Shown piece by piece: positions 6,903-32,684 of a stretch of 64,000 nt of DNA (position 1 is its first letter; each line of letters starts with the position of its first letter). A program made the translations under genes and the position numbers. The stretch is from Terribacillus sp. FSL K6-0262. GTDB lineage: Bacteria; Bacillota; Bacilli; Bacillales; Amphibacillaceae. Location of the stretch: assembly GCF_037977385.1 (NCBI RefSeq), contig NZ_CP150277.1, positions 2,581,001 to 2,645,000 on the forward strand, read 5' to 3'. The notes below the pieces were generated by a model. The model did no database searches. It saw only the letters and a program-made list of their open reading frames with translations, and was not told where the DNA came from.

Positions 6903-6985
6903 CTGCTAAATTGTGGTAAGGGAAGCTTACCTAGTGTAGGCTATGTATTGTAAGATTTTTATGGAGAGAGAAAGGAGATCATATT

Positions 6986-7993
6986 TTGAACGCAAAACGT
7001 TGGATCGCGATCGGGATCGCTGCTTTCCTGCTGTTCGTGTCTGTCGGTTTCCAGACCTTGATTTCAGTCATCAATAGTAACTTTACAGAAGCGATTGATT
7101 CGGCAACGGGGAGCTCTTTCCTCAGTGAGGAAATCATCGAGGATGGAGATGCGATGAATCGGATAGCAGTGCTGAAAGTGGAAGGCACGATTCAGGATAC
7201 AGGAGAAGAAGCATCATTATTGGGAAGCGGTACATACAATCATGCAGCCTTTCTGGAGCAATTGGAGCAGGCTGGCCAGGACGATACAGTCGGCGGTGTC
7301 ATCATAGAAGTGAATAGCCCCGGAGGAGGCGTTGTCGAGAGTGCGGAAATTCACGATAAAGTCGTGGAGGTCCAGGAGGAATACGGAAAGCCTGTTTATG
7401 TGTCGATGGGTAACACGGCTGCTTCCGGCGGCTATTATCTGTCAGCCAGTGCCAACAAAATCGTGGCGCATCCAGCGACACTGACTGGTTCGATCGGTGT
7501 CATCATGTCCACACTCAATTATTCTGAGCTTGCCGATAAAATCGGCATCAAAGAAGAAGTCATCAAGAGTGCCGAGCACAAGGATATCATGTCCGGTGCA
7601 AGGGAAATGACCGATGAAGAAAGGGATATCCTGCAGTCCATCATCGATGATATGTATGCGGACTTCGTACAGGTCATCGTCGATGGACGGGGCATGCCGG
7701 AAGAAAAAGTACGTGAATTGGGTGATGGACGCGTATATTCCGGTAAACAGGCCTTGGAAAATGGTTTGGTCGATGACTTGGGGGATCTGGAAGATACGAT
7801 TGCCATGATGAAGAAAGACCAAGGACTCGAGGATGCGGAAGTGTTTGAATATACGGGAAGCGGCTTCGGTATGGGCTCCTTCTGGGCCACAGCTGCGAAG
7901 GATTGGTTTGTATCTGATTCCGATCTGCTTGGCATCAAGGAATTGATGGGCAAAACGAATTCACCGGAAGCTATGTATCTCTATACGGAATAG
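6986..7993 (+). CDS. sppA: signal peptide peptidase SppA
   Basis: This 335-residue serine protease of the ClpP/crotonase fold is anchored by one N-terminal membrane helix (about residues 7-30) with the catalytic domain outside. The Ser-Lys dyad is visible as S147 in TAASGGYY and K199 in SAEHKD, the same numbers as in B. subtilis SppA. SppA degrades cleaved signal peptides and is linked to resistance to lantibiotics and membrane stress. Translation starts at TTG 6986 after AAAGGAG. It forms a two-gene unit with the RDD protein 11 bases downstream, as in B. subtilis sppA-yteJ. Confidence 0.95.
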   Translation: MNAKRWIAIGIAAFLLFVSVGFQTLISVINSNFTEAIDSATGSSFLSEEIIEDGDAMNRIAVLKVEGTIQDTGEEASLLGSGTYNHAAFLEQLEQAGQDDTVGGVIIEVNSPGGGVVESAEIHDKVVEVQEEYGKPVYVSMGNTAASGGYYLSASANKIVAHPATLTGSIGVIMSTLNYSELADKIGIKEEVIKSAEHKDIMSGAREMTDEERDILQSIIDDMYADFVQVIVDGRGMPEEKVRELGDGRVYSGKQALENGLVDDLGDLEDTIAMMKKDQGLEDAEVFEYTGSGFGMGSFWATAAKDWFVSDSDLLGIKELMGKTNSPEAMYLYTE

Positions 7994-27588: not shown

Positions 27589-28806
27589 TCAATCCTGGTA
27601 GGCACGTTCGCCGTGCATCGTCAGATCAAGACCTTTTGCTTCTTCTTCTTCTGTGGCACGTGCTTTGAAGATGAGGTTGACGATGGAGATCAAGATGAAT
27701 GTCACAACCCCGACAAAGGCGAATGTTGCAATGATGGCAACTACCTGTCTCCATAATAGATCAATACCGCCGCCATAGAAAAGGCCATTGTGCTCGACGA
27801 TTGCATTGATGGAGTCGCTTGCGAACAAGCCAGTCGCGATGCCGCCCCATGTACCGCCCACTGCATGCAATCCAAAGGCATCGAGTGCGTCATCATAACC
27901 AAGCTTCTGCTTCAGCCAGCCGACGCCCCAGAAGCAGACGATGCCGCCGATCAAGCCGATTGGAATGCTGGCAAGCGGGGAGACGAATCCAGCGGCAGGG
28001 GTGATGGCAACCAGCCCGGCGATCGCACCGGATACAGCTCCAAGCAGTGTCGGCTTTTTATTGATGATCCATTCAATGATCATCCATCCAAGTACACCAG
28101 CTGCTGCAGCAGTATTCGTATTGATAAAGGCGTACATTGCTACATCATCGAAAGCAAGTTCGCTGCCGACGTTGAATCCAAACCATCCGAACCAAAGCAA
28201 TGCGCCGCCGATCAATGTGAAAATCAAGTTATGCGGTGCAGTGGAGCCGGCATTTTTACGTTTGCCGATGACGATTGCAACAACCAACCCAGCAAGACCG
28301 GAGGAGATATGGACAACGTTTCCGCCTGCGAAATCAAGCGCGCCCATTTCTGCGATCCAGCCGCCGCCCCAAACCCAGTGTGCCAGCGGGGAATAAACGA
28401 TGAGGACCCAAAGAACTGTGAATAGAATGAATGCTGGAAAACGAATGCGTTCTGCATATGCGCCGGACACGATGGCTGTTGTCAGAATCGCAAATGTCAT
28501 TTGGAACATCATGAATAAGTTGAATGGAATTGTATGTCCGGAGTCTGCGTTTGGATCGAAACCAACGTTATTCAGCCCGAAATAATCCAATCCCCCAATA
28601 ATTCCGTTACCTGGTGAGAATGCCAGGGAAAAGCCGACAATGATCCAAATGATCGAAACGATTGCCATTGTCGTAAAGCTGTGCATCGTTGTGCTCAGCA
28701 CATTCTTGCTTCTTACCAACCCGCCGTAGAAGAGTGCGAGTGCCGGTGTCATCAACCATACGAGGACGGTTGCGACGAACATGAATACCGTATTGGCCAT
28801 ATCCAT
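27589..28806 (-). CDS. amtB: ammonium transporter AmtB (NrgA)
   Basis: This 405-residue protein with eleven membrane helices has the twin-histidine pore sequences (DFAGGNVVHISSG with the first histidine, AFGLHAVGG with the second) and the Amt start segment LMTPALALFYGGLV. It conducts ammonium when nitrogen is scarce. The start is ATG 28806, following AGGGGG. An in-frame ATG further upstream would add residues not found in the family and lacks a ribosome-binding site. It is co-transcribed with the PII gene. Confidence 0.95.
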   Translation of the reverse strand: MDMANTVFMFVATVLVWLMTPALALFYGGLVRSKNVLSTTMHSFTTMAIVSIIWIIVGFSLAFSPGNGIIGGLDYFGLNNVGFDPNADSGHTIPFNLFMMFQMTFAILTTAIVSGAYAERIRFPAFILFTVLWVLIVYSPLAHWVWGGGWIAEMGALDFAGGNVVHISSGLAGLVVAIVIGKRKNAGSTAPHNLIFTLIGGALLWFGWFGFNVGSELAFDDVAMYAFINTNTAAAAGVLGWMIIEWIINKKPTLLGAVSGAIAGLVAITPAAGFVSPLASIPIGLIGGIVCFWGVGWLKQKLGYDDALDAFGLHAVGGTWGGIATGLFASDSINAIVEHNGLFYGGGIDLLWRQVVAIIATFAFVGVVTFILISIVNLIFKARATEEEEAKGLDLTMHGERAYQD

Positions 28807-28860
28807 TTTCTCTACCCCCTGAATGCCTTCTTTATTATTTGAAAATTTAAATCTTTTTTC

Positions 28861-28888
28861 ATTATAAGTGCCCTGCAAAAAAATGTAA
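28861..28888 (-). promoter_or_regulatory. possible amtB promoter
   Basis: Minus-strand TTACAT (28888-28883) and consensus TATAAT (28866-28861) are spaced by 16 bases. A TnrA/GlnR-like half-matched palindrome lies further upstream (28954-28970), but its distance is unusual. Confidence 0.4.
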
Positions 28889-29130
28889 CAAACTTGTCAG
28901 GATATCTTACGTGAATATTTCTGACCAAGTTGTGTAAGTGTTTACAGATTATTTGTCATAAAGCGTCACCAAAATAAGGTCTCCTATAGAAAGATGGGAA
29001 ATGCGGGGCGATTTGTCCTCTTTGATTAACGGGAATGGAAGAGGGAGGGGAGTACATCTGCATCGGTGGTTTGACAGTAATTGTAAAGCATGATAGAATA
29101 ATTAACGTCTTCAATATTTGAGTAACTTTA

Positions 29131-29158
29131 TTGAAGATCTCTGGCATTCTGCTATAGT
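29131..29158 (+). promoter_or_regulatory. promoter of the structured RNA
   Basis: TTGAAG and TATAGT are spaced by 16 bases, with TG one base before the -10. Start of transcription is predicted near 29165, right before the first paired element of the RNA. Confidence 0.7.
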
Positions 29159-29164
29159 TTTAAT

Positions 29165-29353
29165 CAGAAGTACTTATTCAGACTGGAGCGGCCAAGGAGC
29201 CGTAAGGATGCAATAGAGGTAGGGATTGCATCGTTTAAGTGAAAACTACCATGTGGAACAAGTACCGCGGCAGGAGAATGTATTAGGCATTCTCGCATAA
29301 CAATAGAAAAAGTTACATTTTAAGCCCCGCATCGGCAATTGCCGATGCGGGGC
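29165..29353 (+). ncRNA. unassigned structured RNA with a three-way junction and pseudoknot
   Basis: No open frame of note exists here, but pairing is extensive. P1 is 29170-29179 with 29256-29265 (nine pairs, one A-C mismatch). P2 is CGGC/GCCG at 29189-29202. P3 is GATGCAAT/ATTGCATC at 29207-29232. The P3 loop GGTAG (29218-29222) is complementary to CTACC (29246-29250) before P1 closes, a possible pseudoknot. P4 is GAGAATG/CATTCTC at 29274-29294. A perfect 30-base palindrome (29324-29353) ends the unit but has no T tract. It lies between amtB and the S-box of metX. I cannot match it to 6S, tmRNA, SRP RNA, RNase P or a known riboswitch. A trans-acting RNA or a new cis-regulator are both open. 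Confidence 0.55.
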
Positions 29354-29402
29354 GTCCAAATTTCCGGGAAGAATATCCTGATGGAAATTTCAGAATTTAT
29401 AG

Positions 29403-29432
29403 TTGACTCCTATAAGAACCCCATGCTACAAT
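29403..29432 (+). promoter_or_regulatory. promoter of the metX sulfur operon
   Basis: TTGACT and TACAAT are spaced by 18 bases, with an extended TGC before the -10. It lies about 20 bases before the S-box. Confidence 0.75.
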
Positions 29433-29455
29433 CCTGTTAACAAATCAATAGCAAG

Positions 29456-29568
29456 CTCTTATCAAGAGAGGCGGAGGGACTGGCCCGATGATGCCCGGCA
29501 ACCTGCAAGCAGAAATGCTTTTAAGGTGCTAATTCCTGAAAGTGCGCAGAGCACTTTAGAGATGAGAG
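29456..29568 (+). promoter_or_regulatory. SAM-I (S-box) riboswitch, first copy
   Basis: P1 is CTCTTATC with GATGAGAG. The classic S-box blocks are all present in order: AGAGAGGCGGAGGGA, CTGGCCC, GATGATGCCCGGCAACC and AAGGTGCTAATTCC. SAM binding favours the downstream terminator and so turns off metX when SAM is plentiful. Confidence 0.95.
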
Positions 29569-29617: not shown

Positions 29618-29634
29618 AGTTGGGGGGAGGAAGC

Positions 29635-30714
29635 ATGCGGAGAATGGATTTACAACAGTCATACCAAACCGGCAAACTTCTCATCGGGGATATTGTGCTT
29701 GAATCAGGCAATATCCTGCCAAACGTCGAGGTGGCTTTTGAAAAAAGCGGACCCGCTTCGGGAGAAACGGTGCTTGTCTGTCATGCGTTGACGGGAGATC
29801 AGTTTGCAATCGGAACTGATGCAGCAACTGGATGGTGGAATGGATTGCTGCAGCCGGGCGGATACATCGATACCCGCCGATACCAAGTGATTACATTCAA
29901 TGTATTGGGCGGGTGCAATGGGACAACGAGTGCATTGTCGGTAAACCCGGATTCGGGAAGCAGGTATGCGGCAGCCTTTCCGGCAATAACGATCAGGGAC
30001 ATGGTTTTGGTGCAGCGTCTTGCCTTGGAGAAACTGGGAATTGCTCATCTAAAGGCAGTAATCGGCGGATCATTGGGAGGGATGCAAGTACTGGAATGGG
30101 GCGTCATGTACCCTGATTTCATGGATGTGCTGATTCCGCTCGCAGCAACCCCCTTTGTGAGTGATTATGCGATTGCGTATAACCATTTGGCTAAGACAGC
30201 CATCACCTCCGATCCCGATTGGAACGATGGATACTATACACCGGACAGATTACCTGCGGCCGGTCTCGGACTTGCGCGGATGGTGGGGATGCTTACTTAC
30301 CGTTCCGACCATCAATATAATGAACGTTTCCGCCGTGCTGCCTCCCGGAGGGATGATGCAGCTTACGAGGTGGAATCGTATTTGAACTATCAAGGAGAGA
30401 AGCTGGTCAATCGCTTTGATGCCAACTGCTATATGACTTTATTGGAAGCGATGAACAGTCATGATATCGGCAGGGGAAGAGGAGGATGGCAAGCAGCCGC
30501 CCGGAGAATAGACGCAATTGTGCTGACATTCGGATTTTCAAGAGATCTGCTATTTCCTCCAGAGGAGATAAGCCGCTTTGCTGCGGCAGTTCCAAGGGGA
30601 AGGCATGTGGATGTGGATACAATCTATGGGCATGATGGTTTTCTGCTGGAGTTCGAGAAGTGGGGACACCATATCAGGGAGGTACTCGAGCAGCCGATGA
30701 AAATTTCATATTGA
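29635..30714 (+). CDS. metX: homoserine O-acetyltransferase MetX
   Basis: This 359-residue alpha/beta-hydrolase-fold acyltransferase has the nucleophile in GGSLGGMQ (about residue 144) and the catalytic histidine in YGHDGFLLE near the C-terminus. It uses acetyl-CoA (or, in some relatives, succinyl-CoA) to acylate homoserine, committing it to methionine synthesis. ATG 29635 is chosen because GGGGGGAGG lies just upstream; an in-frame ATG at 29620 overlaps the ribosome-binding site. The gene is governed by an S-box. A second S-box begins at the base after its stop codon. Confidence 0.92.
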   Translation: MRRMDLQQSYQTGKLLIGDIVLESGNILPNVEVAFEKSGPASGETVLVCHALTGDQFAIGTDAATGWWNGLLQPGGYIDTRRYQVITFNVLGGCNGTTSALSVNPDSGSRYAAAFPAITIRDMVLVQRLALEKLGIAHLKAVIGGSLGGMQVLEWGVMYPDFMDVLIPLAATPFVSDYAIAYNHLAKTAITSDPDWNDGYYTPDRLPAAGLGLARMVGMLTYRSDHQYNERFRRAASRRDDAAYEVESYLNYQGEKLVNRFDANCYMTLLEAMNSHDIGRGRGGWQAAARRIDAIVLTFGFSRDLLFPPEEISRFAAAVPRGRHVDVDTIYGHDGFLLEFEKWGHHIREVLEQPMKISY

Positions 30715-30820
30715 CTTATCAAGAGAGGTGGAGGGACTGGCCCGATGAAACCCGGCAACCTGTAAGCGGAAATGGCTTTTAAGGTGCTACATCCAGCAAA
30801 CGGAAGTTTGGGAGATAAGG
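30715..30820 (+). promoter_or_regulatory. SAM-I (S-box) riboswitch, second copy
   Basis: P1 is CTTATC with GATAAG. The conserved blocks AGAGAGGTGGAGGGA, CTGGCCC, GATGAAACCCGGCAACC and AAGGTGCTACATCC follow. It starts immediately after the metX stop, so it can act on read-through transcripts and terminate them before metY. Confidence 0.95.
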
Positions 30821-30836
30821 AGTTTCGTGCATAAGC

Positions 30837-30893: not shown

Positions 30894-32684
30894 ATGACAG
30901 ATCAAGTATATAAAGCAGAAACACTAGCATTGCATGGCGGGCAAGCGCCGGATCCGACGACAGGCTCAAGAGCGGTGCCGCTTTACCAGACCACTTCTTA
31001 CTTGTTCCATGATACAGATCATGCAGAGCGTCTATTCGCACTGGATGAGCCGGGAAATATCTATTCCCGAATCGGCAACCCTACCGTCGATGTTCTGGAA
31101 AAACGAATTGCTTTGCTGGAAGATGGCGTCGCAGCAGTCGGTGTTGCATCCGGAATGGCAGCCATCAGCTACAGCATCCTCAATCTGGCAAGCGCCGGGG
31201 ATGAAATCGTAGCAGCAACGAATTTATACGGAGGGACGTATAACCTATTCCAGACTACGCTCCCTCGCTACGGAATCACTGTCAAATTCGTCGATCCGAC
31301 CGATCCGGAGGCATTCCGCGCGGCGATCACAGACAAAACAAAAGCTGTATTTGCAGAAATCATCGGAAATCCCAGCCTGCATGTGCTGGATGTGGAAGCA
31401 GTCGCGGAAGTGGCACATGATGCCGGGATCCCCCTCATTGTCGACAGTACGTTTGCCACACCTATCCTTAGCAAACCGATAACGCTTGGTGCGGATATCG
31501 TCGTGCACAGTGCAACGAAATGGATCGGCGGTCATGGTACTTCCATCGGGGGATTGATCGTCGATGGGGGCCGATTTGATTGGAATTCACCGAAGTTTCC
31601 GACATTCACCGAGCCGGATCCGAGTTACAATGGCATCCGCTATGCATTTGACTTCGGTACGCTTGCTTTCAGTACAAAATTGCGTGTCCAATTGCTGCGC
31701 GATCTTGGGGCTGCCCTTAGTCCGTTCAATGCATGGCAGCTGATCCAAGGCTTGGAGACATTGCATTTACGAGTGGAACGCCATGTACAAAATGCAGAAA
31801 AGCTGGCAGATTACCTTGAACGGCATCCGGCAGTCGATTGGGTCGCTTATCCGGGGCTCAGCAGCCATCCATCCCATGAAATCGCCAAAAGAGTGCTTCC
31901 ATCCGGTGCTGGTTCCATTGTCAACTTTGGCATCAAGGGAGGCAGGGAAGCTGGTGCTGCTTTGATCAATAATGTCGCCCTTTGGTCCCATGTTGCCAAT
32001 GTGGGCGATGCCAAATCATTGATCATCCACCCTGCCTCCACGACACATCTGCAGCTGGATGCCGAGGGATTGGCAGCTACGGGGGTAAAAGAGGAATTGG
32101 TGCGGCTGTCCGTCGGGATTGAAGCAGTGGATGATCTTATCCATGATTTGGATCGTGCATTGGAGAAGGCTACTGGAATCCGTTCGGAATCCCGGAAAAT
32201 CGTGATCAATGATGAAGCTGTCATCCGGGAAGCGCTCGGCAGTGCAACGGATGCCCAAGGGCGCCAAAAAACGATTGCAGTAGTAGGGCTGAGCAGCAAG
32301 GAGCAGCGTCCAAGCAATCGTTTGGCTCGGAAGATGCAGCGCCTCGGTTACAAAATCATCCCGGTAAATCCTGCCGAAACAACTGTCCTGGGAGAGAAAG
32401 CTTACCCGGATTTGAAAAGTGTACCAGGGAAAATCGATATAGCCCAAATCTTCCGCAGTCCGGAAGCGGCTGTGGAGCTGGCAAAGGAAGCAGCCGAGGT
32501 CCGTCCGGAAATATTCTGGCTGCAGGAAGGTGTCGTCTCCCCGGAAGCAGCCGCGATTGCGCGTGAAGCGGGATTGGAAGTGGTCCACAACCGCTGCACC
32601 TATAAAGAAGCGCAGCGCTTGCGCGGAACGATCAGCACCTATGCATGCGAACTGGATGATAAAGGAGTAGCAATCGATGAATAA
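30894..32684 (+). CDS. metY: O-acetylhomoserine sulfhydrylase fused to a CoA-binding domain
   Basis: Residues 1-428 are a full-length MetY of the Cys/Met-metabolism PLP family: SRIGNPTVD near 58, YGGTYNLF near 112 and the PLP lysine K209 in SATKW. It makes homocysteine from O-acetylhomoserine and sulfide and releases acetate. After a short linker, residues 458-575 form a second domain of the CoA_binding_2 (YccU-like) Rossmann type: [32 protein letters not shown] and the conserved cysteine C568 in NRCTY. MetY proteins are normally about 430 residues, so this is a fusion. The start follows GGAGGAATG, and the 3' end overlaps the next gene by eight bases. Confidence 0.92.

Follow-up and report, generated by a model that had tools for sequence, protein, structure and literature searches.

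A predicted RNA gene of the Bacilli on the strand opposite to the Rfam family BsrC

What is encoded between the ammonium transporter gene and the methionine genes of Terribacillus sp. FSL K6-0262? In the window, i.e. the whole 64,000-nucleotide stretch of DNA that was analysed, a sequence-only reading had proposed for this region a structured RNA on the + strand that resembled a riboswitch aptamer or an abundant regulatory RNA. The structured RNA on the + strand was borne out by our analysis, with compensatory changes in its helices P1, P2 and P3, while the promoter, the closing stem and the pseudoknot that had been drawn for it had to be corrected.

The locus and its Rfam match

The features that define the locus are the following.

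27589-28878, - strand: ammonium transporter gene (PF00909), flanking the RNA locus
29071-29099, + strand: sigma-A type promoter TTGACA-17-TAGAAT, 11 of 12 matches, best + strand site of the locus, with transcription predicted to begin near 29106
about 29106-29353, + strand: predicted RNA gene of the extended type, about 245 nt from promoter to terminal hairpin, with predicted ends
29158-29244, - strand: match to Rfam BsrC (RF01410), 76.2 bits (gathering score 38), on the antisense strand of the predicted RNA
29456-29568, + strand: SAM riboswitch (RF00162), before the acetyltransferase-like gene
29620-30714: putative homoserine acetyltransferase-like gene (PF00561), other flank of the RNA locus
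30713-30821, + strand: SAM riboswitch (RF00162), before the next methionine gene

The described position of the RNA between the ammonium transporter and methionine genes is correct for the window. No locus outside the own genus showed these neighbours, and they say nothing about the function of the RNA. A DNA search of the own genome returned a single copy of the stretch, apart from self-matches of its palindrome. Further downstream, at 30894-32684, the window contains a Cys/Met PLP enzyme with a fused C-terminal CoA-binding domain (PF01053 + PF13380).

It had been stated that the RNA fits no known class. Its reverse complement, however, matches Rfam BsrC at twice the gathering cut-off and covers 87 of 87 model positions (cmscan). 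The Rfam scan that had been suggested therefore yielded a confident match, but on the opposite strand; on the + strand of the RNA locus, nothing was found above the cut-off. The only + strand match listed up to E = 10, RAGATH-12 (RF03149), reached 16.8 bits compared to a gathering score of 75 and was taken as a chance match.

RF01410 describes the reverse complement of the same conserved element and was also found in our Bacillus subtilis control, but it differs from the RNA studied here in several respects. It models the opposite strand, which by comparison would not be the transcribed one, and spans 87 nt instead of about 245 nt for the window RNA. Moreover, its consensus is a single hairpin with closing pairs and lacks P1, P3, P0 and PX, although P1 and P3 covary. 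Judged by this comparison, the window RNA is an extended, re-oriented variant of the family that Rfam holds as BsrC. The two SAM riboswitches nearby are likewise structured RNAs, but no SAM match was detected by Rfam at 28950-29450; SAM riboswitches are cis-acting leaders of methionine genes. 6S RNA and similar housekeeping regulatory RNAs resemble it as stand-alone genes that are broadly distributed in a class and have two types in one genome, but Rfam shows no match to them at the RNA locus.

Core structure, covariation and the two types

By comparison of homologues, the core is shown to be a three-way junction (P1, P2a/P2 and P3) with a nearly invariant purine-rich loop. Its elements in the window, all on the + strand, are listed below; P2 and P3 correspond to the two enclosed hairpins of the sequence-only reading.

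29172-29176, +: 5' strand of P1 (ACUUA), pairing with 29236-29240; four of five pairs changed on both sides, 94.0% of cells paired
29236-29240, +: 3' strand of P1, pairing with 29172-29176
29183-29184, +: P2a, CU pairing with AG at 29205-29206; 97% paired, U-A to A-U in 9 rows
29188-29203, +: P2 hairpin (29188-29192/29199-29203), with covariation
29207-29232, +: P3 hairpin (29207-29214/29225-29232) with loop L3 (AGAGGUAGGG, 29215-29224)

Covariation was analysed in two alignments. Alignment A1 contains 23 of 32 loci, as the window copies L001 and L002 and the near-duplicates L004, L015, L017, L018, L019, L022 and L023 were excluded, and was not fitted to R1, the + strand core model that was built from it. 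Alignment A2 contains 100 of 139 loci, about one per genome; it was fitted to R1 and leans towards it. In A1, 95.2% of the cells were paired, 15 of 19 pairs were changed on both sides and the covariation was 0.514 compared to 0.252 after shuffling. RNAalifold applied to this alignment (MAFFT) returned the same P1, P2 and P3, with one isolated pair added and one terminal pair missing. In A2, 93.3% of the cells were paired and the covariation was 0.616, compared to 0.265 in shuffled and 0.08-0.15 in slid alignments, but pairs changed on both sides were not clearly more numerous than in the shuffles (16 vs 14.1; reached by 66 of 500 shuffles). Within P3, seven of eight pairs were changed on both sides and 96.9% of the cells were paired (A2).

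The unpaired bases of the core are highly conserved. Loop L3 has the consensus AGAGGYAGGG, with eight loop columns conserved at 97-100% and columns 54, 55, 58, 59 and 65-67 at 100 of 100. J1/2 contains two further conserved unpaired segments, UC (98 of 100 each) and, beside P2a, GG (100); a single G of L2 (100) and the G that follows P3 (99) are conserved as well.

The elements outside the core, again on the + strand of the window, are as follows.

29107-29138, +: 5' hairpin (29107-29116/29129-29138), loop with GUAAC; MFE and compensating changes in six sister loci
29122-29129, +: 5' strand of P0 (GUAACUUU), long-range pairing with 29309-29316
29142-29145, +: conserved UGGC of the junction, in 36 of 39 loci with YCGCGG
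29147-29152, +: 5' strand of PX (UUCUGC), pairing with 29253-29258
29253-29258, +: 3' strand of PX (GUGGAA), pairing with 29147-29152
29264-29270, +: conserved junction element ACCGCGG; 39 of 100 loci carry YCGCGG immediately 3' of the core
29274-29294, +: P4 hairpin (29274-29280/29288-29294), compensating changes in sister loci
29309-29316, +: 3' strand of P0 (AAAGUUAC), pairing with 29122-29129
29324-29353, +: terminal GC-rich hairpin, perfect palindrome without U tract, probable RNA end

The originally assigned promoter (TTGAAG-16-TATAGT, 29131-29158) shows 9 of 12 matches as opposed to 11 of 12 at 29071-29099. It also overlaps the conserved UGGC and PX, and relatives have their own promoter-like sites upstream of both. 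From the corrected promoter, the predicted length increases from the earlier figure of about 190 nt to about 245 nt.

The earlier closing stem, presumably GTACTT/AAGTAC of the MFE structure (29170-29175/29260-29265), has all 6 pairs in the two own-genus loci of the set; in 44 other extended loci, 2.4 of the 6 are retained on average, and only one of these 44 has 5 or more. In the same comparison, the covarying stem 29172-29176/29236-29240 keeps 4.9 of 5 pairs. A covariation check had been proposed for P1, P3 and the pseudoknot: the corrected P1 and P3 covary, but the pseudoknot GGTAG/CTACC does not. All five of its pairs are present only in the two own-genus loci and in L016, L029 and L082, out of 46 loci. 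The complementarity of loop and linker amounts to a mean of 2.1 compared to 1.5 for shuffled linkers, and as the GGTAG side hardly varies, it provides no compensatory evidence.

The fourth hairpin is present in the sequence and corresponds to P4. The 30-base palindrome without a T tract is also present, but only the window has it in perfect form; in six sister loci, the terminal hairpin is retained with G-U changes that preserve its pairs. With this palindrome (29164-29353), the folding energy corresponds to z = -6.5, whereas the RNA without it (29106-29323) is ordinary in this respect (z = -1.8; 10 of 200 shuffles were as good). The evidence for the structure is thus the covariation, not the folding energy.

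By comparison of its sequences, the family comprises two types, a core-only type and an extended type with P0, PX and the UGGC/ACCGCGG junction; the window copy is of the extended type. For P0, real combinations of 5' and 3' strands were more stable than mismatched ones (-16.9 vs -13.8 kcal/mol, p = 3e-6, 43 loci), with a p-value that is optimistic owing to related loci. The same limitation applies to PX, in which the bases after UGGC pair with GURGAA (-6.03 vs -4.77 kcal/mol for mismatched strands, n = 43, p = 9e-4), also within 20 hand-picked divergent loci (-5.26 vs -3.23, p = 8e-5). Whole-helix exchanges in PX were observed in L087 (AACUGUG/CACAGUU) and in L074. L015 was dropped from the extended alignment, and L020 and L118 are contained in it without UGGC. 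In all four Bacillus-like genomes for which both copies were read (G028, G040, G076 and G291), the two copies differ in type, one being core-only and one extended, which offers a natural comparison of the two types within single genomes.

Sense strand, gene neighbourhood and distribution

A G-U pair on one strand appears as a C-A mismatch on the other strand. With one terminal pair left out, the helices of the 100 homologues in A2 contain 213 G-U and 11 C-A cells, and row by row, 91 homologues favour the + strand, 3 speak against it and 6 are equal. When all 21 pairs are counted, the numbers are 238 and 64; 53 of these C-A cells stem from the one terminal P2 pair (columns 30-36). Alignment A1, which was not fitted to the model, shows 56 G-U and 1 A-C without the same pair. 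Promoter-like sites point in the same direction. A promoter score of at least 9 was found on the + strand in 50 of 101 loci (the A2 loci and L118) and on the other strand in 8. The mean score was 8.64 on the + strand, while the value of 6.11 on the other strand equals that of shuffled upstream DNA (6.28). Similarly, terminator scores of at least 14 were detected in 40 of 98 loci on the + strand compared to 6 on the other strand (three loci did not have enough flanking sequence). In about half of the loci, these thresholds are not reached by any promoter-like or terminator-like site.

Because G-U/C-A ratios, promoters and terminators all favour the + strand, RF01410 would, by comparison, be the antisense of the RNA. 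The opposite reading takes BsrC, as modelled by Rfam, for an sRNA of the minus strand and the + strand structure for its mere mirror image. It can draw on the Rfam match of 76.2 bits on the minus strand and on the name, which is carried by papers based on Rfam. Considering the asymmetries given above, and promoter scores of at least 9 in 18 loci as opposed to 1 on the minus strand among 34 (28 named and six Bacillus-like loci), with most of the 18 being the same homologous site, located 21-22 nt ahead of the core, we regard this reading as highly improbable. The second alternative, a metabolite riboswitch or another leader acting on the next gene, appears equally improbable. The compact junction core with its invariant loops and the SAM riboswitches next door would be compatible with such a function. 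Nevertheless, no more than 53 of 98 loci share their strand with the nearest downstream gene, and these genes differ, so that the RNA is not the leader of a conserved gene set. Furthermore, the methionine gene of the window has its own promoter-like site (29403-29432, ahead of the acetyltransferase-like gene) and its own SAM riboswitch.

The upstream side gives a similar picture, with the nearest gene on the same strand in 52 of 96 loci; on both sides, ORFs were called mechanically. The neighbours are diverse, and recurrent ones are lineage-specific. A CarD-like gene (ydeB type) is a neighbour in 7 of 100 loci; among the named loci it is one in 21 of 28, a figure biased by the search pattern. 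In 9 of 100 loci, the fetched stretch includes cvfB. For both, one representative was named by Pfam, and neighbour clustering of named loci covered the 28 stretches searched with R1. Since the neighbours vary between lineages and their orientation is random, we consider the locus an RNA gene and not a riboswitch; of the two functions initially suggested, this supports the regulatory RNA only. The features expected of a stand-alone sRNA gene were found, namely a conserved structure with compensatory changes as well as a promoter and a terminator of its own on the sense strand, the terminator being weak in the window for want of a U tract. Overall, a stand-alone sRNA gene with its own sigma-A promoter, as opposed to a cis-acting switch, is probably the best explanation. 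We have high confidence in the claims for an RNA gene, its sense strand and its homology taken together, which are based on sequence comparison.

Published data on BsrC come from several sources. Rfam-based papers treat BsrC as an sRNA, although the passages concerned do not allow the detected strand to be read. In B. subtilis, the passage in PMC2784878 describes the bsrC segment as joined with the upstream gene. The peak 'bsrC' stands in the first row of an sRNA table in PMC3574147 with an RPKM ratio of 53.6 with Hfq, and expression of BsrC in the vegetative phase is cited in PMC4634765; the strand is stated in neither passage. For Paenibacillus riograndensis, a transcript of 322 nt (688,067-687,745, strand given as minus) has been assigned to BsrC by means of Rfam (PMC5670726). 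As these passages do not settle which strand of the element was detected, an antisense transcript of the RNA may exist. We found no paper under 'RF01410' in the literature and saw no description of the RNA in the accessible parts of PMC8632094, which deals with structured RNAs; 'bsrC' in PMC11805744 is a strain name and not an sRNA. Core-only copies follow a gene of the ydeB type or, in one genome, of the ydaG type that is encoded on the same strand; for B. subtilis 168, copies are reported at cspC-ydeB and ydaG-ydaH. Given such same-strand upstream genes and the joined segment in B. subtilis (PMC2784878), these copies may be partly derived from 3'-UTRs.

The core model R1 matched 214 of 398 genomes and 79 of 145 genera of the class, in a search with stricter filters in which weak matches are lost. 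In a sample of the phylum, 7 of 199 genomes matched, all of them belonging to the same class. RF01410 matched 37 of 41 genomes, including the own genome, and 28 of 32 genera, as well as 1 of 14 control genomes (Bacillus subtilis). Named carriers identified by an exact pattern (49 stretches) include Bacillus spizizenii, B. halotolerans, Neobacillus, Fictibacillus, Peribacillus, Metabacillus, Lysinibacillus and Paenibacillus, and all 28 of these stretches that were searched with R1 gave a match. Hence, by sequence comparison, the RNA family spans the class Bacilli, and its only Rfam entry, BsrC, models the complementary strand and captures one hairpin.

Some records deserve a separate comment. 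The stretch with the RNA in OR846590.1 (L189, Enterococcus phage Efs 1-1-1) reads as a bacterial chromosome. For this record, carriage by a phage was rejected, as the match is located among genes that are by eye of chromosomal type, in an unannotated record marked as unverified; it was taken as host DNA. Based on this stretch and on loci such as L110 and L119, we infer that Enterococcus-like genomes carry the RNA. An IMG/VR contig listed as viral (L191) contains a Bacillus-type core-only copy at 6965-7042, whereas a second IMG/VR contig (L192) shows the pattern only. The 1.44-Mb megaplasmid of Niallia taxi (NZ_CP102590.1) carries a copy of the core (L190, 2995-3072, 94.4 bits). Two records titled Pseudomonas sp. 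ISL-84 (L145) and Chryseobacterium sp. ISL-80 (L159) match the RNA pattern, the former also R1 with 91.1 bits; since these names lie outside the Bacilli, the records are probably mislabelled or contaminated.

Possible role and candidate partners

A trans-acting regulatory RNA is the most likely interpretation. Conserved unpaired loops usually mark a binding surface, which is why we favour an RNA that would act in trans and present L3. With reasonable though not full confidence, we suggest that the RNA from 29106-29353 (+) acts in trans. By analogy with other stand-alone regulatory RNAs, the folded core would present L3 to a protein or RNA partner, and the chances that the contact is made through L3 may be about even. 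The extended type could additionally present its UGGC/ACCGCGG junction to a partner. The presence of the RNA in 79 of the 145 sampled genera of the class that contains Bacillus subtilis makes it likely that it does something general. On present evidence, strand-specific probes, knock-downs and RNA-seq counts based on RF01410 would miss the RNA, because the database entry points to the wrong strand. With strand, length, promoter and helices corrected, its function becomes directly testable.

Three uses of the outer junction were considered. In the first, UGGC and YCGCGG would be used within the molecule, as a 3-bp helix UGG/YCG beside PX, with the remainder serving as a protein site. In L117, if so aligned, G to A occurs together with C to U, and C/U variation elsewhere keeps a G-U pair; yet this is a single compensated case, and most loci have C opposite A at the position that follows, which makes the helix unlikely. 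In the second, the RNA would face the ribosome: UGGC and UACCGCGGY would pair with 16S rRNA near 516-521 and 524-532 (530 loop), in an order that fits a three-way junction with P0. It may be speculated that the extended type would clamp the 530 loop between the strands of the outer junction, with P0 as third arm, and act on 30S assembly or on resting ribosomes. If true, this would be a Bacilli-wide housekeeping RNA hidden by an antisense catalogue entry, with a core-only paralogue without the clamp arm in the same genomes. Both segments are complementary to neighbouring stretches of the own 16S rRNA. CGCGG is followed by C or U, both of which can pair with G, in 39 of 39 loci, and a U is found two positions ahead in 27 of 39; the first Y of YCGCGG was set by the search pattern and does not count as evidence. 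Matches of at least 8 nt to the complement of the 530 loop occur in 35 of 100 loci, compared to about 0.7 of 100 shuffled flanks and 11 of 390 far windows, a count driven by the conserved 7-mer itself. A Paenibacillus-like genus has a different 10-nt match to the 530 loop, which is kept in 6 of 8 further loci but lost in the other two and can, by eye, sit in a local hairpin. On the other hand, the longest match of the ACCGCGG segment in the own 16S rRNA is 9 nt at another site and is equalled by 5% of shuffles, and the UGGC segment does no better than chance (43%). PX accounts for the base that follows UGGC, and neither element is present in most core-only members. The position, the restriction to C or U after CGCGG and the excess over far windows thus hint at a pairing of the extended junction with rRNA, but on the own 16S and 23S rRNA the complementarity lies close to chance; we give only a slim chance to the ribosome-facing reading, and a similarly slim one to the clamp. 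A literature search joining 530 loop, small RNA and Bacillus returned no paper. The third possibility, a T-box-like contact with tRNA, would build on ACCGCGG being the same heptamer as the T-box motif. No Rfam T-box match up to E = 10 was found at 28950-29450, and within GUGGAA, the UGG takes part in the PX pairing and is replaced by UAG in L029, L030, L065, L072 and L079, so that we attach hardly any probability to this contact. A trans-acting RNA that would present L3 remains our preferred interpretation.

With regard to rRNA pairing of the conserved segments in general, L3 and three other segments were at or near chance on the own 16S and 23S rRNA. The J1/2 segment ATTCAGACTGG (29176-29186) has a 9-nt complement in the own 23S rRNA, which is reached by 3% of shuffles. 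Besides eight full copies, the genome contains two adjacent partial LSU rRNA matches (G000:C1:1148705-1149926, model positions 1689-2035 and 2045-2912), i.e. a broken or partial 23S rRNA.
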